A stretch of 64,000 nucleotides of DNA from a virus (IMGVR_UViG_3300032770_000005:62001-126000), one strand, 5' to 3'; counted from the first letter of the stretch, positions 6,820 through 45,209 are shown. Numbers and translations are program-made. The notes: generated by a model not told the origin, from the sequence alone.

Positions 6820-7346
6820 CCCTCGAAGCGCGCTACCGAGATGCTTGCGTCGCGCCGAGCGACATCAACGAGCATCTGCCCACGCTACGGCGGCTCGCGG
6901 CGACATGCGGCGGCCACGTGACGGAGATGGGCGTCAGGCACGGGGTGAGCACGATCGCCCTGCTCGCCGCGCAGCCGCGCGTGCTGCGCTGCTACGACAT
7001 CCTCCAGTACGACTGGTCGAGCATCATGCCGCTGCGTGGGGCGACCGATCTGCTCTTCACGGTCGCGGACTCGCGCGCCATCGACATCGAGGAGACGGAC
7101 CTGCTCTTCATCGACACGTGGCACGTGTACGACCAGCTCAAGGTCGAGCTGAGTCGTCACTCGCCGCGGGTCCGGCGGTGGATCGCGATGCACGACACGG
7201 TGACCTTCGGGGCCAGGGGCGAGGACCCGAAGTATGGCGGCCTCTGGGCAGCGGTACAGGAGTTCGTCGCGGGTGGCTGGTGGAAGATCATCGAGCACCA
7301 TCCGAACAACAACGGCCTCACGGTCGTCGAGCGTTGTGGGAAGTAG
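6816..7346 (+). CDS. Class I methyltransferase-like protein
   Basis: 176 residues from GTG 6816. VTEMGVRHGVSTIALLA fits the glycine-rich SAM-binding loop of class I methyltransferases, and LLFIDTWHVYDQL resembles the strand-4 region of the methyltransferase-24 group, often found with glycosyltransferases. The protein is short, and a catalytic residue set cannot be confirmed by eye. Its stop codon TAG (7344-7346) lies inside the left copy of an 11-bp direct repeat flanking an inserted cassette, so the next gene of the operon is now displaced. Confidence 0.6.
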   Translation: MTLEARYRDACVAPSDINEHLPTLRRLAATCGGHVTEMGVRHGVSTIALLAAQPRVLRCYDILQYDWSSIMPLRGATDLLFTVADSRAIDIEETDLLFIDTWHVYDQLKVELSRHSPRVRRWIAMHDTVTFGARGEDPKYGGLWAAVQEFVAGGWWKIIEHHPNNNGLTVVERCGK

Positions 7347-8033
7347 CAGTCATGCTTATCCGGTTGGACGCGCAAAGAAGGAGGCGCGAACCGATGACTA
7401 ACGATGACTACGAGGAGTTCGTGGACGGTCTGGCGCTGATTGGTATCACGCCACAGCCGGTGTCGCCGGAGACATTGCTGCGCGCGCTGCTCGATCAGAA
7501 TGGCCACTACGTTTCGGACAAGATCGTCGAGTTGATGGAAGTGGTTGGGTGCAGCCCGCGCACTGGCTGGGCCGTCGTCATTCCGCAGGTCGAGGCGGGC
7601 CAGCGCTGCATCCTGCCACCCGGCTTTTCCTATCGCGAGAGCGGTGAGAGATACGGCGCTTTCTTTTACGAGGAATCGCATGGCAAAAACCATGGGCCGT
7701 GGGTCATCGATCCACGCAAGGACCGCGATGCGTTCTATGCAGCGGCCAAGGACCCGCTACTCGTAGATGTCTGCCGAATCGCGTGCGCGCGGTGGGGCGA
7801 GCCGAGCGAGAGCACCAACTCGCGCGGCCAACGCCTGACGTATTTCCCATGGGGACTGGCACATCCGACAGAGTCGGTACCTGACGCCGGTGTCCAGCAT
7901 GCGCGCTGGTTTGTAGAGGGGGAGCCGGCCGCCGCTGTGGCTGTGGCAGCAGGTCGTCTAGGACACGATGCTCTTGCGATCGTCGGTGCACGCTGGATGT
8001 TCAACAATGGGCGAAAACCGGATAGCAGTCATG
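7344..8033. mobile_element. Cassette A: inverted-repeat element with target duplication
   Basis: TAGCAGTCATG is present at 7344-7354 and again at 8023-8033. Between the copies the left end reads CTTATCCGGTT and the right end reads AACCGGA, an inverted repeat. An internal GGGCGAAAACCGGAT at the right matches cassette B. Removing the insert puts the stop TAG of the methyltransferase gene four bases before the ATG of the next operon gene, which is the expected uninterrupted order. One gene of lower GC is carried and there is no transposase. Confidence 0.65.
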
Positions 8034-8041
8034 ACGGGTGA
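7394..8041 (+). CDS. Unknown cargo protein of cassette A
   Basis: 215 residues from ATG 7394, with a strong AAGGAGG eight bases upstream. It is acidic at the N-terminus, with an SPETLLRALLDQNG helix. The middle has WAVVIPQVEAGQRCILPPGF and then a WVIDPRKDRDAF segment. No family is recognised. Base composition is visibly lower in GC than its neighbours. The last codons read through the right inverted repeat and the duplicated target, so the cargo gene may have ended elsewhere before insertion. Confidence 0.6.
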   Translation: MTNDDYEEFVDGLALIGITPQPVSPETLLRALLDQNGHYVSDKIVELMEVVGCSPRTGWAVVIPQVEAGQRCILPPGFSYRESGERYGAFFYEESHGKNHGPWVIDPRKDRDAFYAAAKDPLLVDVCRIACARWGEPSESTNSRGQRLTYFPWGLAHPTESVPDAGVQHARWFVEGEPAAAVAVAAGRLGHDALAIVGARWMFNNGRKPDSSHDG

Positions 8042-8348
8042 GGAGCTTCCGCCGCTGTCGAAAGGAGAGACCGTGTTTCTCCTTTGCGGCCGCATCGATC
8101 ACGACGGACTCTCTTTGGATCCGGACAACGACGATCAGCCGGTTCTGGACCCGCGGAGCTTTTCGTGGCTCTCCGCAGAGGTGCGTGGCCGCGAGAGTTT
8201 CGATTCCTACGAGATCGTCTTTCCGGACGGTAGCGTTACGGAATACGAGCGCCGATTTCTTTTGACCCGCACCGAGGCGACGCGGTTCGCTGAAGTCGGC
8301 CTGGTGGAGTTGAAGTCAGTGGAAGCGCGCGAGCGAACTGCGCGATGA
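8031..8348 (+). CDS. Small acidic protein of unknown function
   Basis: 105 residues. ATG 8031 lies in the right copy of the cassette A target duplication and was probably the native start just after the methyltransferase gene; a longer form from ATG 8007 would begin inside the cassette end. The fold looks all-beta (ETVFLLCGRIDHDGLSLDP, FDSYEIVFPDGSVTEYERR). It overlaps the GT17 gene by ATGA and so belongs to the glycosylation operon. Function is unknown. Confidence 0.55.
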   Translation: MTGEELPPLSKGETVFLLCGRIDHDGLSLDPDNDDQPVLDPRSFSWLSAEVRGRESFDSYEIVFPDGSVTEYERRFLLTRTEATRFAEVGLVELKSVEARERTAR

Positions 8349-9112
8349 TCTACGACGGGTTCATGTTCTTCAACGAGCTGGACCTGCTGGAGATCCGCCT
8401 CCACGAGCTGAAGGACGTCGTCGACCGCTTCATCCTCGTCGAGTCGACCCTGACGCACTCGGGCAAGCAGAAGCCGCTCTACTTCGCCAACGCGAAGCAC
8501 GAGGCGCGCTTCGCGCCATTCGTGGACCGCATCGAGCACGTCGTGGCCGAGCTGCCTACTGGCGCGGGCCACGAACCGTCCTGGCGTCGCGAGAACGAGC
8601 AGCGACGCGCCATAGGTCGCGGGTTCACGAGGTTCGGGCACGGAGACCTGCTGCTCGTCAGCGATGCCGATGAGATCCCCTCGGCCGAGGCAGTCCGCCG
8701 GTACGTGCCGGGTACGGGGGTCGCGGGGCTAGAGCAGGTGTTGAGCTACTTCTACGCGAACGCTCTTGGTGGCGGGTGGATCGGAACGCGCATCGTGCCG
8801 TACGAGGAGTACATCCGCCGCCCCGACATCCAGGTCTACCGCACGCATCTCGACTGCTCGATCCCCCGCGGCGGATGGCACTGGTCGTACCTCGGCGGCG
8901 CGGACCGTGTGCGAGAGAAGCTCGCGAGCTTCGCTCACACCGAACTCGACACGCCGGCCTTCATGTCACGTGTCGACGAGTCCGTGCGCGATGCCAAGCT
9001 CATCTGGGACGCGGCACAGCGGTGCCGCGTGGTGCCCGTCGACGACAGCTTCCCGTCGTACCTGATCGCGAACCAGGAACGCTTCGCCCATCTACTGAAG
9101 GCGGTCGCATGA
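8345..9112 (+). CDS. GT17-family glycosyltransferase
   Basis: 255 residues. The opening MIYDGFMFFNELDLLEIRLH is the signature of family 17 (beta-1,4-mannosyl-glycoprotein GlcNAc-transferase type), followed by FILVESTLTHSG and LLLVSDADEIPSAEAV, which supplies the acidic metal-binding motif. GWHWSYLGG near residue 178 is also conserved in the family. The length is normal for bacterial and viral members. It probably adds N-acetylglucosamine or a related sugar to the same glycan as its neighbours. Confidence 0.85.
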   Translation: MIYDGFMFFNELDLLEIRLHELKDVVDRFILVESTLTHSGKQKPLYFANAKHEARFAPFVDRIEHVVAELPTGAGHEPSWRRENEQRRAIGRGFTRFGHGDLLLVSDADEIPSAEAVRRYVPGTGVAGLEQVLSYFYANALGGGWIGTRIVPYEEYIRRPDIQVYRTHLDCSIPRGGWHWSYLGGADRVREKLASFAHTELDTPAFMSRVDESVRDAKLIWDAAQRCRVVPVDDSFPSYLIANQERFAHLLKAVA

Positions 9113-9699
9113 GCTTCACGGAGAACTGGTACTCGGAGCAGCAGCTGGTCGAACTGCAACGCGCGGTGCGTCGCGTGCGAGCGCTCAGCGGCGAGATCAT
9201 CGAGCTGGGCTGCTGGGAGGGCAAGAGCACCTGCGCGCTTGCCGTGGCCGCCGAGCCCGAGCCCGTGATCGCGGTCGACAACTGGACCGGGAGCCACTCC
9301 GAAGGCGAGGGTCATCCGACCGTGCAGATCGCCAAGCAGCGCGACGTTCTGGCCGTGTTCAGGGAGAACGTGGCGATGTACACGCGTGGCAACGTCGTGA
9401 TCGTGAGGTTGGACCACGACGCGTTCATCGGGTCGCTGGGTTTCCCGTCGCTGGAGTTTCCCGTGGCGAACGCGGTGGTGAAGTTCGTGCACATCGACGG
9501 CGCGCATGACTATGCGTCGGTGCGCCGGCAGATCCTGGGCCTGAAGCCGCACATGGTCCCGGGCGGCATCATCTGCGGGGACGACTTCCTCACGGCGAGC
9601 GCGCAGAGGCACGACCTGGGCGGCGGCGTCGAGCGCGCTGTCCGCGAGTGCTGCCCGAACTTCGAGCTGCACGGAAACCTCTGGCTCTGGGTGCGGTGA
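9109..9699 (+). CDS. Class I SAM methyltransferase (methyltransferase-24 type)
   Basis: 196 residues with the SAM-binding loop IIELGCWEGKSTCALAVAA, the strand-2 acidic end VIAVDNW and the motif VHIDGAHDYASVRRQI, which gives the aspartate and histidine typical of this family. PGGIICGDDFL completes the core. It probably methylates a sugar of the glycan built by the adjacent transferases. It is coupled by ATGA to the GT17 gene and by TGATG to the GT2 gene. Confidence 0.8.
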   Translation: MSFTENWYSEQQLVELQRAVRRVRALSGEIIELGCWEGKSTCALAVAAEPEPVIAVDNWTGSHSEGEGHPTVQIAKQRDVLAVFRENVAMYTRGNVVIVRLDHDAFIGSLGFPSLEFPVANAVVKFVHIDGAHDYASVRRQILGLKPHMVPGGIICGDDFLTASAQRHDLGGGVERAVRECCPNFELHGNLWLWVR

Positions 9700-10343
9700 T
9701 GCGTGTCGTGCTCGGCGTGCCTACGCTCAATCGCTACGACCTGCTGGCCGACCTGGTCGCGTCCGCACGAGCGAGTTCGCGGCCGCCGGATGAGATCGTG
9801 ATCGTCGACAACGGCGGCACGCTCGCGATGGAGCAGGTGACCATCATGCGGCCGGGTCGCAACGTCGGCGTGGGGCCTGCGTGGAACATGATCGCGCGAG
9901 CCGCCTTCCACGGGCGTGACGACAGGCTGCTGCTCGTGGGCGACGACGTGCGGCTTGCCACGGATGCGATCGAGGTACTGCTGCGCACGCACGAGCAGAC
10001 CGGCGCGGACATGGTCTATCCGGGACATCTAGCGGGGAACATCTTCTCCTGCTTCATGTGCACGCCGATGCTCTTCGGTCGGGTCGGCTACTTCGACGAG
10101 GACTTCGCGCCGGCGTACTTCGAGGACAACGACTTCCACTACCGCATGCGCCTGTGCGGCGTGAAAGACGCGGCGGCGCCATGCGTCGTGGCACACCAGG
10201 GGAGCGCGACGTTGGCTCGGTTCTCAGCTGCGCAGCTGGAAGAGCATCACCGTAACTTCGAGCGACTGCGGCAGCTGTACGTGCGCAAGTGGGGCGGCGT
10301 CCCGGGCTCCGAGGCGTACATCACGCCCTACAACAAGGGTTGA
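9699..10343 (+). CDS. GT2-type glycosyltransferase
   Basis: 214 residues. VVLGVPTLNRYDLLADLVAS, EIVIVDNGG and then LLLVGDDVRLATDA give the GT-A nucleotide-binding strand and a DxD-like acidic motif. YFDEDFAPAYFEDNDFHYRM is the ED-type catalytic base region of inverting family 2 (rhamnosyl-transferase-like) enzymes. Short but complete in these motifs. It completes the sugar cassette that runs from 3.1 kb. Confidence 0.85.
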   Translation: MRVVLGVPTLNRYDLLADLVASARASSRPPDEIVIVDNGGTLAMEQVTIMRPGRNVGVGPAWNMIARAAFHGRDDRLLLVGDDVRLATDAIEVLLRTHEQTGADMVYPGHLAGNIFSCFMCTPMLFGRVGYFDEDFAPAYFEDNDFHYRMRLCGVKDAAAPCVVAHQGSATLARFSAAQLEEHHRNFERLRQLYVRKWGGVPGSEAYITPYNKG

Positions 10344-10354
10344 AGGAGATCGCG

Positions 10355-10618
10355 ATGAAGAAGGTCAAGAAGAGTCAGAAGGTCACGACGAAGGACGAGG
10401 GGGACGAGAACCCGGTGTTCGAGTACGCAGCGACCGAAGACGACCGCGCTATGCTGCTGAAGTCAGACGCGTTGCCGAGCGGCACCGCGGCAGAGCGGGC
10501 CTGGACGAGTTTCGCGTGCGCGGCGATCGCCGGAAGGTTGACCTTCAACGCTCTGGGCGCTGCCGAAGCGGCGGACAGCATGCTTGCCGAATGGCGGAGG
10601 CGATGGGGGCCGGAGTGA
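10355..10618 (+). CDS. Small unknown protein
   Basis: 87 residues from ATG 10355, with AAGGAG seven bases upstream. The N-terminus is Lys-rich (KKVKKSQKVTTKDE). The C-terminal 45 residues form an Ala-rich helical hairpin (AWTSFACAAIAGRLTFNALG, DSMLAEWRRRWG). No family is recognised. It is the last gene before the first repeat-bearing intergenic region. Confidence 0.55.
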   Translation: MKKVKKSQKVTTKDEGDENPVFEYAATEDDRAMLLKSDALPSGTAAERAWTSFACAAIAGRLTFNALGAAEAADSMLAEWRRRWGPE

Positions 10619-10631
10619 GCGACCACGGCGC

Positions 10632-10937
10632 GCCGGCGCGAGGGCTTCGTACTCGCAACTCGGAGGAGGATAGTGCGAAGCCAGCGCGGGGGCCGAGTGC
10701 CTGCGAGCGAGCGCGTCCGGTCTCGTCGTCGCGAGGCCTGCGCGGGGGCCTGATGCCTGCGACCGGTCCATCGGAGTCTCCTTTTGCTGTTGTGCGAGGT
10801 CGCAGGGCCAGCGCGGGGGCCTTGCGCTCGCGACACAATGAACCGGACGCTCGTCCGGTAGCCAGCGCAGAGGCTTCATGTCTGCGACCGCATCGCTGGT
10901 AGGCGAAAGGCCAGCGCAGGGGCCGAATGCCTGCGAC
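10632..10937 (+). repeat. Repeat cluster 1: six palindromic 36-bp units
   Basis: This non-coding gap of about 345 bases holds six units of the window-wide repeat (core CCAGCGCGGGGGCC, end TGCCTGCGAC). The best are at 10728-10763 and 10799-10834, each with a GTCGC left arm and GCGAC right arm. Other units lie near 10632, 10678, 10853-10888 and 10902-10937. Spacers vary from about 13 to 35 bases, so this is looser than the 44-kb array. I see no gene in the gap. Confidence 0.8.
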
Positions 10938-10963
10938 GCGATCGCCTCGCATGAAGGCTGGCT

Positions 10964-11374
10964 TCAGACGCGGTACGGCGCAGTCCAGACGGCGTAGCAG
11001 CCGTACCCCACGCCGGCTCCGATTAGTCCGCCGGCGATCGGGTTCTTGGTCACGGCGCCGATGATCCCAGCGACCAGGCCGCCCACGCCAGAGGCGAGGC
11101 TGCCGGCATTGATCAAGCTCTGCGTCTGCGTCGTCCACTGCTGGTTGAGCGCACTGTCGGAGCACGCGATGCTCGTCAGCAGCCCCTGGCCGAGCCCGCG
11201 GTACGGGTCGCGCCCGAACAGATAGATGTCGGGCTCGCCGGTCACGTCCGATCCGTACTGGATGTAGCCCGGCATCGGCAGCCCAGGCATGCGCGTACGG
11301 CCCGGCGGCAGCGTCGCGAAGTTGACCTGGCCAGGCACCACGACCTGTCCAAGCGCACGGCGGCGGTAGCTCAT
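10964..11374 (-). CDS. Small membrane protein, likely virion-associated
   Basis: 136 residues beginning MSYRRRALGQ, like other MSY-starting membrane proteins in the window. The C-terminal half is Gly- and Ala-rich with a hydrophobic segment (LASGVGGLVAGIIGAVTKN then GLIGAGVGYGCYAVW), predicted to span the membrane once or twice. A TACCAT hexamer lies six bases before the ATG on this strand, with no Shine-Dalgarno site, so the mRNA is probably leaderless. A virion membrane role is an inference. Confidence 0.6.
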   Translation of the reverse strand: MSYRRRALGQVVVPGQVNFATLPPGRTRMPGLPMPGYIQYGSDVTGEPDIYLFGRDPYRGLGQGLLTSIACSDSALNQQWTTQTQSLINAGSLASGVGGLVAGIIGAVTKNPIAGGLIGAGVGYGCYAVWTAPYRV

Positions 11375-11380
11375 GCAGCG

Positions 11381-11386
11381 ATGGTA
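11381..11386 (-). promoter_or_regulatory. -10 element for a leaderless start
   Basis: On the minus strand TGCTACCAT sits exactly six bases before the ATG at 11374. The TAnnnT hexamer with upstream TG fits an extended -10 box, placing the transcription start on or near the A of the ATG. The same arrangement is seen at seven other first genes. Confidence 0.5.
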
Positions 11387-11407
11387 GCAGGGGCATGGCG
11401 CTCAGTG

Positions 11408-11413
11408 TAGGAT
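11408..11413 (+). promoter_or_regulatory. -10 element for a leaderless start
   Basis: TAGGAT lies seven bases before ATG 11421, preceded by TG. No Shine-Dalgarno site is present. It drives the kinase-like gene and is back to back with the promoter of the minus-strand gene at 11374. Confidence 0.45.
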
Positions 11414-11420
11414 GGCGGTC

Positions 11421-12182
11421 ATGCTCCAGGGGTACGGCCAAGATCTGCATTCGGGCGCGGGCACGGAATGGGACGAGCTGACCAAGCGCGTCCACTGGCC
11501 GCTCGGCGCCGTGATGACGTCCGCCTACGCCGAGCCGCTTCGAGCGCTGCGGCTGCACGACCCTGTCGAGCAGCGACTCGGGTACGGCGGCTTCGGTGCC
11601 GCGTACCGCGTGCGGCTACGCGGCATCGATAGCGTGCTGAAGCTGACGCGAGACCCGTACGAGGTCATCGCGGCCTGGAACCTGAAGCGCAAGCACACCA
11701 AGCGCGTGGTCCCGGTGTACGAGGTCTGGTCGCTCCCGAAGCTCCAGCAGTACGACCACTGGGCGTCGTGGTGGGTGGTCCATCGTGGCTACCTCGCGCC
11801 GCTGTCGAAGGCCGACCTCGACCTCACCGAGCTGATCTTCGACCTCTGGGACGACGACGACCTCGACCTGAGCGTGCCGCGGCACGGCGAGGTCGGGCGC
11901 AGCATGCGCTCGAAGTGGAAGATCGTGCTCGATCAGGAGACAGATCTGAACGGCCAGGAGAAGGCACGCCTGCTGCTGCTGCTCGACCAGATCGCATTCG
12001 GCATCCGCGAGATGGGCCAGCACGGCATCGACTGGACGGACATCATGCCCGACAACCTGCTCCGGGCTCCCGACGGCGGCATGATGATCGCGGACTTCGG
12101 GTTCGGTCGCCCCAAGAAGGACTCGGACGTCAACCCGCCAGAGCTGACCGTGCAGCTCGCTCGCGAGTACGCTGGTGGCTGA
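11421..12182 (+). CDS. Protein-kinase-like protein
   Basis: 253 residues. ATG 11421 is chosen over ATG 11412 because the latter overlaps the -10 hexamer. Kinase-like features are a glycine loop (RLGYGGFGAAYRV), a lysine in SVLKLTRD, a catalytic-loop-like IDWTDIMPDN (with Asp and Asn) and ADFGF, the DFG metal motif. The N-lobe and C-lobe are shorter than in standard Ser/Thr kinases and the HRD triad is replaced. It may phosphorylate host proteins or be an inactive fold. It is followed by Nudix with a one-base TGATG overlap. Confidence 0.7.
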   Translation: MLQGYGQDLHSGAGTEWDELTKRVHWPLGAVMTSAYAEPLRALRLHDPVEQRLGYGGFGAAYRVRLRGIDSVLKLTRDPYEVIAAWNLKRKHTKRVVPVYEVWSLPKLQQYDHWASWWVVHRGYLAPLSKADLDLTELIFDLWDDDDLDLSVPRHGEVGRSMRSKWKIVLDQETDLNGQEKARLLLLLDQIAFGIREMGQHGIDWTDIMPDNLLRAPDGGMMIADFGFGRPKKDSDVNPPELTVQLAREYAGG

Positions 12183-12598
12183 TGCGCTGGGGCGCAGCCG
12201 GCGCTGGGCTACTGCTGGTCGCTTCTGACACGCGCCGAGTTCTGCTGCTGCTGAGGAGCGCGGGCGTCACGGAGCCAGGCACGTGGGGCGTGCCAGGCGG
12301 CCGTCTCGAACCCGGCGAGGCTCCGCTCGATGGCGCCATGCGCGAGGCGGCCGAGGAGATCGACTTCCGCGGCCCGGTCGCGATCGTCGGCAGCTACGTG
12401 TACCGCGAGAGCGGCTTCGAGTTCACGACCTTCGTCGGGATGGTGGAATCGGAGTTCCGACCGCGCCTGAACTGGGAGAGCGATGACGCGCGGTGGTTCA
12501 TGCCGGACGAGTGGCCGGACAATCTTCACTTCGGCGTGCGGCACGTGCTTCAGACCATGCTTATCCGGTTGTCGCCCACGCCAAGTAGACAGAGATAG
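12182..12598 (+). CDS. Nudix hydrolase, C-terminus replaced by an insertion
   Basis: 138 residues. The Nudix box is complete (GGRLEPGEAPLDGAMREAAE then EI), with the REUxEE metal-binding glutamates. The enzyme should hydrolyse a nucleoside diphosphate linked to another group, for example NTPs, ADP-ribose or capped RNA. Residues after HVLQT (about 126) come from cassette B: the target duplication CTTCAGAC is followed by the cassette end. Removing the cassette joins the frame to a Cys-rich tail now at 13041-13202, so the ancestral protein was longer. Confidence 0.8.
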   Translation: MRWGAAGAGLLLVASDTRRVLLLLRSAGVTEPGTWGVPGGRLEPGEAPLDGAMREAAEEIDFRGPVAIVGSYVYRESGFEFTTFVGMVESEFRPRLNWESDDARWFMPDEWPDNLHFGVRHVLQTMLIRLSPTPSRQR

Positions 12599-13048
12599 CG
12601 ATGTTCTGTAGGATTCTTTCGCAAGGGAGCGTTTCCATGAGGAAAAAAACCAAGCGAACGACACGGAACACAGCGCAGGTGTGGGATTACGATGATATCC
12701 GCGACCCGACAGACAAGACGTACATGCTGACATTCCAACCGTACTTGGAAACGCCAGACGGTCAGAAGGCGGAACTGACGATCGGCTACCTACCGCGTCG
12801 TCGTGGCTACGGCTACGGAAGGTGGGAAGAGTTCTTCCTCACTCTGCCAGAAGCGAGGCGTCGCATGGACTTTCTTGCATCCGCAAGGGCGATCGAGGAC
12901 GCCGAGATCCGAAAGGAAATCCCAGGCGGCGGGATGATGACCACACTCGTGGACGCATGGCGCGACGAAGAGGGCGACGAAGACTGAGACATTCGCCGGG
13001 GCTTGGAGCGCTGTTTTTGGGCAAAAACCGGATGAGCATGCTTCAGAC
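12546..13048. mobile_element. Cassette B: inverted-repeat element with target duplication
   Basis: TGCTTCAGAC occurs at 12546-12555 and 13039-13048. The left end CATGCTTATCCGGTT and the reverse complement of the right end CATGCTCATCCGGTT differ at one base. Both ends extend to a GCCCA. The same ends flank cassette A. The insertion lies inside the Nudix gene, and its removal (493 bases) restores one open frame. One low-GC gene is carried. I see no transposase, so mobilisation in trans, or a decayed element, is inferred. Confidence 0.7.
12637..12987 (+). CDS. Unknown cargo protein of cassette B
   Basis: 116 residues from ATG 12637, chosen over 12601 because AAGGGAG lies about eight bases upstream. 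The N-terminus is basic (RKKTKRTTRNT). The middle is rich in aromatic and charged residues (WDYDDIRDPTDKTYMLTF, RRRGYGYGRWEEFFLTLPEA) and the end is acidic. Base composition is the lowest of the neighbourhood, with A runs in the first codons, consistent with recent transfer. No family is recognised. Confidence 0.6.
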   Translation: MRKKTKRTTRNTAQVWDYDDIRDPTDKTYMLTFQPYLETPDGQKAELTIGYLPRRRGYGYGRWEEFFLTLPEARRRMDFLASARAIEDAEIRKEIPGGGMMTTLVDAWRDEEGDED

Positions 13049-13202
13049 GAGCCGGCCGGCCGCTGCTGCGCCGGTCCGCGCCTGCGTGTGGTGCAGCGGC
13101 ACCGGCACGATCCCCGCGACGCGGATGATCTGTCGGACGTGCGGGGGGGACTGGCTTCGGCGTCTGAAGAGCAGCTGCGCGAGTCAGATTAGGGACAGCT
13201 GA
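13032..13202 (+). CDS. Displaced Cys-rich tail of the Nudix protein
   Basis: 56 residues reading MSMLQT followed by a zinc-binding pattern CVWCSGTGTIPATRMICRTC, which is like the CxxCxGxG motif of DnaJ-type zinc fingers. The first residues LQT duplicate those of the split Nudix gene, so it is best read as the separated 3' part. Its start codon lies in the cassette end. Whether it is still translated is unknown. Its last 19 bases overlap the helicase gene on the other strand. Confidence 0.5.
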   Translation: MSMLQTSRPAAAAPVRACVWCSGTGTIPATRMICRTCGGDWLRRLKSSCASQIRDS

Positions 13203-17835: not shown

Positions 17836-18106
17836 GTCCGGCGCAGAGACTCGTGTCTGCCGTCGCTACTCGTCCTTCATCTCGACACGGCGTCGCAGGC
17901 ACCCCTGCGGTTCGCGGGCACATTCGGAAGCGGGCTGGTCACCATGTCGCGAGCACGAGGCCCCCGCGCTGGCCAGACGCGCGCCGCGCCGGGCGTCACG
18001 TAGTCGACGTGTCGCGAGTACCAAGCCCTCGCGCTGGCTTCCGACCACGAGAGACGGGTCCACTACGTCCTCGACGCGAGCACGAAGCCCTCGCGCTGGC
18101 TTCGCC
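17836..18106. repeat. Repeat cluster 2: five palindromic units
   Basis: At least five units lie between the RyR gene and the next coding frame. Those near 17891, 17946, 18011 and 18072 are in reverse orientation (start GTCGCGAGCAC, core GCCCTCGCGCTGGC). The first at 17836 is degenerate and in the other orientation. The last unit runs into the open frame of the following gene and seems to have replaced its 5' part. Confidence 0.7.
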
Positions 18107-33924: not shown

Positions 33925-34232
33925 GCAGCATGCGCCAGCGCGAGGGCCTGGTGCTCGCGACCAGGCCTGAAGAGCCCTGCGGTCACGAAGCCTGCGCAGG
34001 GGTCTCATGCCTGCGACGAGGAGTGCCATGCCATCCATCATCTGCGGGACCTGCTTCTGGTTGCAGGGCCAGCGCGGGGGTCTCATACCTGCAACGAGAG
34101 CATCGAACGATGGAACGCTCGGAGGCGTGAACGTCCGAGGCCGGCGCGAGGGCCTGGTGCCTGCGACCTGTTCTTCCGCTGGTGGAGAACCGCATCGTCG
34201 CGAGCACCAAGCCCCCGCGCCGGCCTTTCGAC
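33925..34232. repeat. Repeat cluster 4: five palindromic units
   Basis: Four forward units (about 33925-33961, 33982-34017, 34060-34095, 34133-34167) and one reverse unit (34197-34232) fill the gap between convergent genes. The third has both arms changed, GTTGC and GCAAC, so pairing is kept: a compensatory change. The gap of about 360 bases has no gene that I can support. Confidence 0.75.
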
Positions 34233-42367: not shown

Positions 42368-42552
42368 CCGTGGCCCGCGCAGGGGCCTCGTGCCTGCGAC
42401 CATACCGAGCACCGGCACTCGTGCAGCCGCAGGGTCGGTTGCGAAGCCTGCGCAGGGGCCAGGTGCCTGCGACAAGTTGTACGACACGTACTTCCCGCGC
42501 GAAGTCGGGACGTGTTGTTGCGAAGCCGGCGCGAGGGCTTCGTGCTCGCGAC
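42368..42552 (+). repeat. Repeat cluster 6: three palindromic units
   Basis: Units at about 42368-42400, 42438-42473 and 42517-42552, all forward. The second and third begin GTTGCGAAGC and end GCGAC. The remaining gap (42553-42622) carries a leaderless promoter only. Confidence 0.7.
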
Positions 42553-43823: not shown

Positions 43824-45209
43824 GTCGCGGGCATTCGGCCCCCACGCTGGCCTGACGGCGACGGCGATGACCCACTGCTGCGCCATGTCGCAGGCACGAT
43901 GCCCCCACGCTGGCCCTGCAACGCGCACAACGCGCAGTACAAGCCGATGGCGCTCGGCGTGGCTCGGCGTGTCGCGAGCACCAAGCCCCCGCGCTGGCCT
44001 CGCCTGCATGACGATCTGCACCGAGTGCTTCTGCGTCCATCCGTCGCGGGCACTCGGCCCCCGCGCTGGCCTCGTAACAAGGGCTCTAGCTGACCGGTCA
44101 GCAGGACGACGCGCAGTCGCAGGCACGATGCCCCCGCGCTGGCTCTTCGAGACGCCGTCTCGGCCTTCCGGTCGCAGGCACCAGGCCCCTGCGCAGGCCT
44201 CGCAACAACTACACGCGAACCGAGCGCCTTCGCATATGCGTCGCGAGCACAAGCCCTCGCGCTGGCTCAGTCGTGGAACTGCATGTCGCGGACACCAGAG
44301 CCTCCGCGCAGGCTCGATCGTGGTCGCTCGGCTTGAGCGCGAGCCGGGCCTTCTCGCTCACTTCGCGAGCACCAAGCCCCCGCGCTGGCTTCGCGACTAC
44401 GTGGATGCGGCCGCTTCCCCTTGGTCCAGCGCCAGGTGCAGGCACGAGGCCCCTGCGCAGGCCTCGCGACGTCCTCGTCATGAACACCAATCTCGCGGAC
44501 ACGCAGTCGCAGGCACACGGCCCCCGCGCTGGCCTCGCGACGCATATGATCGGCGCTGGTACGCGTGCGGCGACCTCCAGTCGCAGGCACTCGGCCCCCG
44601 CGCTGGCCTCGCGACGCTCCGGCGCGCCGCGTGAGCATCACGACGTCGCGCTTCATGTCGCGAGCACTCGGCCCCCGCGCTGGCCTCGCGACCGGCAGAC
44701 CCGGGCGATGGTAGTGCTGCACGATGACGTCGCAGGCACACGGCCCCCGCGCTGGCCCCGCGACCAATGAACGGTGCCTTGTGGGCGGCCACGGGTCCCA
44801 GAGTCGCAGGCACACGGCCCCCGCGCTGGCCTCGCGACCCGCACAGCAGCGCGTTGAACGCGCCGCCCGCGAGAAAGTCGCAGGCACACGGCCCCCGCGC
44901 TGGCCTCGCGACGGCACTGCTCCGGCGCATGGGCTTCTGCGAGGAGCGCGGTCGCAGGCACACGGCCCCCGCGCTGGCCTCGCGACCGCGTCGCTGGCCA
45001 CCCGACACGCATGTATGTGCCTCCCGGTCGCAGGCACACGGCCCCCGCGCTGGCCTCGCGACGCACGTCGTGCACGGTCGGCGTTGTCGTAGTTCTCCTG
45101 TCGCAGGCACCAGGCCCCCGCGCCGGCCTCGCGACTAGAGGATCTGCGTGCGAGGAACGTTGTCGAAGAAGGAGTCGCAGGCACACGGCCCCCGCGCTGG
45201 CCTCGCGAC
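43824..45209 (-). repeat. Twenty-unit palindromic repeat array
   Basis: Twenty units of about 36 bases lie at 43824, 43887, 43971, 44043, 44116, 44171, 44240, 44285, 44362, 44435, 44506, 44580, 44657, 44729, 44803, 44877, 44951, 45027, 45100 and 45174 (starts). On the plus strand they read GTCGCAGGCAC at the left, CCCCCGCGCTGGCCTCGCGAC at the right. Left-hand units are degenerate and irregularly spaced; right-hand units are almost identical. The array ends next to the gene at 45135-45627. No cas gene is in the window. Confidence 0.85.
44506..45209 (-). CRISPR. CRISPR-like regular part of the array, ten repeats
   Basis: Ten 36-bp repeats, nearly all identical, with nine unique spacers of 38, 41, 36, 38, 38, 38, 40, 37 and 38 bases. 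Repeat ends form GTCGC/GCGAC arms. These sizes are typical of CRISPR arrays, and degeneration at one end (to the left) is typical too. Against CRISPR: related units are scattered singly and in both orientations across the window, and no cas genes are seen. It may be a CRISPR array fed by host Cas proteins, or another RNA hairpin array. Confidence 0.45.

Follow-up and report, generated by a model that had tools for sequence, protein, structure and literature searches.

Two short segments with similar ends, cassette A (7351-8023) and cassette B (12556-13040), in the 64,000-nucleotide virus stretch IMGVR_UViG_3300032770_000005:62001-126000 (the window, from whose first letter plain coordinates are counted) raise the question of what they are and how they came to lie among the genes around them. 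The window belongs to a linear virus record of 152,857 bp, a metagenomic contig. With a probability of about 0.9, we regard both segments as non-autonomous transposable gene cassettes, that is, mobile insertion cassettes (MICs), with ends like those of ISAcr1, an insertion sequence (IS) of the IS1595 family. The view that they are MICs moved in trans by an ISAcr1-like transposase was reached because they belong to a family with shared terminal inverted repeats (TIRs) and target site duplications (TSDs), because a cognate transposase exists, because a sister cassette has empty sites, and because the Nudix hydrolase gene that B interrupts is uninterrupted in a related contig. As both lack a transposase, they are classed as MICs and not as insertion sequences.

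The ends of the two segments were examined together. B has 23-bp TIRs at both ends, and directly outside them the same 8 bp, CTTCAGAC, stand on either side, an exact repeat for which the prior chance is about 1/65,536; the left end of A shares its first 15 bp with B. The best match to the 23-bp TIR was 22/23 in the real window as against 18/23 over 60 shuffled windows, and the only good matches in the whole record were the four ends of A and B. An earlier note, made from the window alone, had described two transposase-free cassettes with shared inverted ends, flanking direct repeats and a Nudix frame restored by excision, and all of these were indeed found in the sequence. Its boundaries needed revision: the true ends lie outside CTTATCCGGTT, the full TIR being CATGCTTATCCGGTTGACGCCCA, and the duplications given as 11 and 10 bp are 8-bp TSDs with extra bases that coincide by chance, the 11-bp TAGCAGTCATG at A consisting of the TSD plus a CATG that belongs both to the end of the TIR and to the start codon that follows. 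The GCCCA extension that it had reported is present at three of the four ends, the left end of A reading GCGCA. The low GC content noted for the gene in each was borne out for the cassettes, with 56.5% for B (lowest 0.08% of equal-sized stretches) and 61.8% for A (lowest 1.3%) in a window of 67.6%, and so was the presence of one unknown gene in each (215 aa in A, 116 aa in B), no relatives of either being found.

To see how widely such ends occur, patterns were scanned against databases, and the same TIR was found in many phage contigs and bacterial genomes. With TTATCCGGTTNNNGCCCA as pattern, 64 stretches were obtained from IMG/VR, in several of which paired ends faced inward. Another pattern, CRTGCTTATCCGGTTNNNRCCCA, matched 117 stretches of IMG/VR and 97 of bacterial and archaeal genomes. 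Pairing of the TIR ends yielded 127 candidate elements; an exact 8-bp TSD was present at the expected offset in 83 of these pairs, as against one pair in total over 20 neighbouring control offsets. After removal of duplicates, and with at most one TSD mismatch allowed, 67 elements remained (50 from virus contigs, 16 from bacterial genomes, and cassette B), 63 of them with an exact 8-bp TSD. The TIR consensus of this set is C[A/G]TGCTTATCCGGTTGACGCCCA, and its target consensus is the weak palindrome GTTYRAAC, with which the target of B agrees.

Evidence of mobility came from sister cassettes. A 765-bp cassette with a D12 methyltransferase gene (locus L219) is flanked by CAATGAAC and CAATGAGC, and three loci of about 87% nucleotide identity (L282, L283 and L288) have a precise empty site there, reading through as ...GGGTGAAACAATGAGCATCGATG... 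with neither cassette nor duplication. These empty sites came from a targeted search around L219; when all joined flanks were blasted against the fetched loci, no empty sites were obtained. The cassettes of L010 and L219 match over their full length at 78% identity, but no alignment is obtained for the 1 kb on either side of them, which indicates that the unit moved as a whole, and the same type of cargo was found at different sites among the cassettes of the family. In locus L228, an Endonuclease VII gene is split by a 258-bp cassette, and omission of the unit with one duplication gives a continuous frame (PF02945, E=5.6e-20). Mobilisation in trans by a cognate transposase would fit both the empty sites and the similar cargo at different sites.

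A transposase of the IS1595 family, with domains PF12762 and PF12760, is encoded by 13 of the 67 elements (10 viral, 3 bacterial). Its closest named plasmid relative is ISAcr1, with 68% amino acid identity. The ISAcr1-type copy on the Acidiphilium plasmid pACMV6 has the ends CTTGCCTATCCGGTTGACTCCCA and CTTGCCTATCCGGTTGTTACCCA and an 8-bp duplication, GAATCAGC, and its TIR is near-identical to that of the family. Two autonomous viral elements (L174 and L221) carry this transposase together with a DNA methyltransferase between the same TIRs, and are plausibly intermediate between an insertion sequence and a cassette. The proposal of the earlier note, a MITE-like (miniature inverted-repeat transposable element) or gene-cassette family moved in trans, thus gains support from the recurrence of the ends in other phages and in bacteria, from the sister-cassette empty sites, and from a transposase with the same terminal repeats, whose family it had not named.

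The insertion of B can be followed in the Nudix gene. When B and one TSD are omitted, the frame runs on at 13049, reaching 175 codons and gaining a CxxCxGxG-type tail. The Nudix domain proper is already complete ahead of the insertion point (PF00293 profile 5-132 of 134), and the terminal ATG from the TIR end of B is in frame with the former tail. The 30.9-kb contig that includes L228 shows synteny with the window (identities of 60% for the kinase, 56% for Nudix and 54% for the helicase, with more genes upstream), and its Nudix gene is uninterrupted and without a TIR, so that B is a lineage-specific insertion. A direct search with the restored Nudix frame gave no match, this contig having surfaced only through its sister element; a pattern search of IMG/VR for relatives of the helicase gave none. 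Both ends of B seem intact, and the cassette could still be mobilisable.

Several points weigh against this reading of A and B. The right end of A is defective, its outer 7 bp being missing: it stops at AACCGGAT, and of the duplication to be expected, GTAGCAGT, TAGCAGT is left. Loss of 9 bp between two TA dinucleotides (microhomology) would account exactly for both the end and the TSD remnant, and A, short of its outer right-end bases, is probably fixed in place. No empty site was found for A: the relatives of its upstream gene, like the G001 region, lack the gene that follows A and therefore offer none, and L228 shows no conservation of the surroundings of A, which left A without such a comparison. 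For B the empty site is one-sided and at the protein level only, since the sequence past the insertion point differs or is rearranged in L228. No IS1595 transposase (no PF12762) was found anywhere in the 152,857-bp record, and movement in trans is for this reason something that we infer, as we do the source of the transposase, the expression of the cargo and its benefit. No relatives of either cargo turned up in IMG/VR, phages or Pfam, nor any of the B cargo in PHROGs, so that the two cannot be demonstrated to be transferred genes; single-sequence structure prediction gave poor models of them (mean predicted local distance difference test scores of 32 and 39). Finally, in a metagenomic contig an assembly error is to some degree possible.

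Most elements of the phage contigs carry no transposase and one gene each. Among 39 transposase-less elements (B and 38 viral ones of 240 bp or more), the longest open reading frame (ORF) takes up, on average, 80% of the length of the element, as against 43% after shuffling, and a Shine-Dalgarno-like sequence just inside one TIR is usual for the transposase-less viral elements and for B. Besides the cargos listed in Table 1, MazG-like proteins, DUF1643 proteins and many unknowns were found, A and B being among the unknowns; both of their genes point the same way as the surrounding genes. DNA-modification genes gave the impression of being enriched, on a tally made without a matched background. 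It might be argued that A and B are decayed autonomous insertion sequences that lost the transposase by internal deletion, their ORFs being chance or relics. The ends are of the IS1595 type, and in bacterial genomes the same ends mostly bound cargo-less MITEs and complete insertion sequences, the transposase-less ones being mostly 100-265 bp without a convincing gene (viral versus bacterial size, Fisher p ~1e-6 at 280 bp, from unbalanced, pattern-based sampling). Such decay is nevertheless improbable, as neither cargo ORF resembles a transposase, ORF coverage far exceeds that of shuffled elements, and many cargos are recognisable phage genes.

Other explanations fare worse still. Integron cassettes, inserted at att sites by a tyrosine recombinase, would likewise be units of one small promoterless gene with varied cargo that is transcribed from the target operon. 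They have no TSD and one attC at one end, whereas here 23-bp inverted repeats are present at both ends, with exact 8-bp TSDs and a transposase bearing the same ends, and we give this explanation almost no credence. The ultra-small mycobacteriophage elements of the MPME class, for which kinship would be marked by the end CATGCTTATCCGGTT, are also phage-borne, of similar size (439 bp), and have one small ORF with inverted repeats near the ends (PMC3029335). Instead of an 8-bp TSD, such as the exact one of B, they show 6 unexplained bp at the left end, and no IS1595 link has been reported for them (PMC3029335); on this description, not on a sequence comparison, membership of A and B is very remote. 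A Tn3-derived miniature element (TIME) was rejected together with the integron, MPME and decayed-IS explanations. Short repeats are common in 68% GC DNA, and yet a chance likeness, or an operator- or terminator-like repeat of this phage, is scarcely conceivable when the same TIR pairs with exact TSDs occur in unrelated contigs and the record holds no good matches besides the four ends of the two cassettes.

On the preferred reading of A and B as MICs, movement may be pictured as follows. A DDE transposase made elsewhere (by a host insertion sequence, a prophage or a co-infecting phage) would act on the cassette ends during infection, binding the 23-bp inverted repeats and then excising or copying the unit. 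Joining of the unit to a loosely palindromic GTTYRAAC-like target would create the 8-bp duplication, and a unit that landed in a phage operon would have its single small cargo gene transcribed from the operon promoter. With a stop codon in one of its frames (ACC GGA TAA) and CATG at its end, the TIR can close one frame and open the next, and the phage may make use of this. The features concerned are given in Table 1.

Table 1. Features of cassettes A and B and their surroundings in the window, and cargo types of family cassettes by locus
Feature	Position or locus	Strand	Basis
A left TSD GTAGCAGT	7343-7350		8 bp directly outside consensus TIR
A left TIR CATGCTTATCCGGTTG(G)ACGCGCA	7351-7374	+	first 15 bp as family consensus, further in a G insertion and a single mismatch
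A cargo gene, 215 aa; stop codon just outside the element, inside the next gene	7394-8041	+	ORF, GAAGGAGG upstream of ATG
A right TIR TGGGCGAAAACCGGAT, outer 7 bp AAGCATG missing	8008-8023	-	exact match to pattern ATCCGGTTNNNGCCCA
A right TSD remnant TAGCAGT, 7 of 8 bp	8023-8029		sequence
Next operon gene, starting directly after A	8031-8348	+	ORF list
Nudix hydrolase gene, 3' end interrupted by B	12182-12598	+	PF00293, E=1.5e-17
B left TSD CTTCAGAC	12548-12555		exact match to right copy
B left TIR CATGCTTATCCGGTTGTCGCCCA	12556-12578	+	22/23 to family consensus (1 mismatch)
B cargo gene, 116 aa, perhaps starting further upstream at 12601	12637-12987	+	no relatives found
B right TIR CATGCTCATCCGGTTTTTGCCCA (minus-strand reading)	13018-13040	-	19/23 to family consensus (4 mismatches)
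B right TSD CTTCAGAC	13041-13048		exact match to left copy
Former C-terminal part of Nudix frame, CxxCxGxG-type tail, now downstream of B	13049-13202	+	frame restoration
D12 methyltransferase cargo	L010, L219, L194
Other DNA methyltransferase cargo	L244, L038
Mom-like modification protein cargo	L009, L017
PAPS-reductase-like protein cargo	L048, L187, L169
DHH phosphoesterase cargo	L206

The scans also brought up other arrangements with family ends. The 117-kb contig IMGVR_UViG_3300050119_000104 (loci L008, L012, L052, L056 and L061) carries many near-identical MITEs of 233-256 bp, several with exact TSDs, a recent transposition burst inside one phage genome. At L237:3546-4580, GAAAGAAC precedes a left TIR twice and follows one right TIR, which looks like a tandem cassette pair with one shared duplication, and two adjoining cassettes at L029:9394-10287 (9394-9826 and 9872-10287) are a possible cassette array. 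Many CAMATZ01 contigs (L078, L082, L097 and others, from a metagenome-assembled genome titled Bordetella parapertussis) stop about 120-150 bp past the TIR, which is what an interruption of the assembly by a multi-copy element with family ends would produce. A 1136-bp unit with the same TIRs is present at several sites (L033:9803-10938, L071:6830-7965, L052:4200-5335 and L197:654-1789; a TnpB/OrfB gene is shown for L033); unlike most family members it lacks a matching 8-bp duplication, and it is perhaps TnpB-related or recombined. Separately, a 28-bp repeat, GGCCAGCGCGGGGGCCNNNNGCCTGCGA, has about 36 copies in the window, in runs at a spacing of about 74 bp, the intervening sequence varying from copy to copy (43825-45200 on the minus strand, 10679-10940, 33933-34220 and 42372-42470) and singly at 17947, 23546, 29483, 29556, 38491 and 41947; the spacing is CRISPR-like, yet single copies are also dispersed between genes.

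Among known systems, ISAcr1 and the IS1595 family share with A and B the TIR core TATCCGGTTGAC-CCCA and the 8-bp TSD, together with the 68% identical transposase in autonomous phage copies. They differ in that A and B each hold an unrelated gene in place of the transposase, so that the two are derivatives using IS1595 ends. Passenger genes are reportedly carried by 'transporter IS' elements of the IS1595 family, as described by Siguier in 2009; L174 and L221 resemble these in combining transposase and DNA methyltransferase, from which A and B differ in having no transposase. MICs consist of IS ends around passenger genes without a transposase, and a cognate transposase acting in trans presumably moves them (PMC3129680), MIC231 of Bacillus cereus being one of them (cited in PMC2266710). 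In common with MIC231 and the qnrD and qnrS2 MICs, A and B have ends that match a known IS group (those of A complete on the left and shortened on the right), a TSD of the size made by the cognate IS, and a single passenger ORF with no Pfam match; they differ in that the ends are of IS1595 and not IS4/IS231 type, the carriers are phages, and the family is large with often DNA-modifying cargo. MPME1 and MPME2 of mycobacteriophages are likewise mobile units of very small size in phages, each having inverted repeats and a single short ORF, without an 8-bp TSD or a known transposase and with 6 extra bp at one end (PMC3029335). TIMEs are also non-autonomous, bounded by TIRs, able to include modules and mobilised in trans, and they differ in their 38-bp Tn3-type TIRs, 5-6 bp TSDs and location in bacterial replicons (PMC4133298). 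Provisionally, no description of phage cassettes with IS1595 ends was found in the open-access papers searched, subscription papers and preprints being outside this scope; MICs and IS1595 elements with passenger genes are already known, and what appears undescribed there is the large phage-borne pool with varied cargo.

To our knowledge, the mechanisms by which phages gain and lose single genes ("morons") are mostly unknown. The cassettes make one concrete route for single-gene gain visible, with defined ends, a defined TSD, a transposase family and precise empty sites, and the question of mechanism becomes testable because the ends of B could be moved by an ISAcr1-like transposase. Since the cargo includes DNA methyltransferases and Mom-like, MazG-like and PAPS-reductase-like proteins, the TIR may also be used as a probe for new anti-defence candidates among cassettes of unknown function, those of A and B included. 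It is an even bet, in our judgement, that phages share a pool of single-gene cassettes with ISAcr1/IS1595 ends in which genes for DNA modification and other host interactions are over-represented, and which transposases of the host or of co-infecting phages shuffle in trans. If so, this shared pool would be a transposition-based form of gene exchange for phages, comparable in its role to integron cassettes in bacteria.

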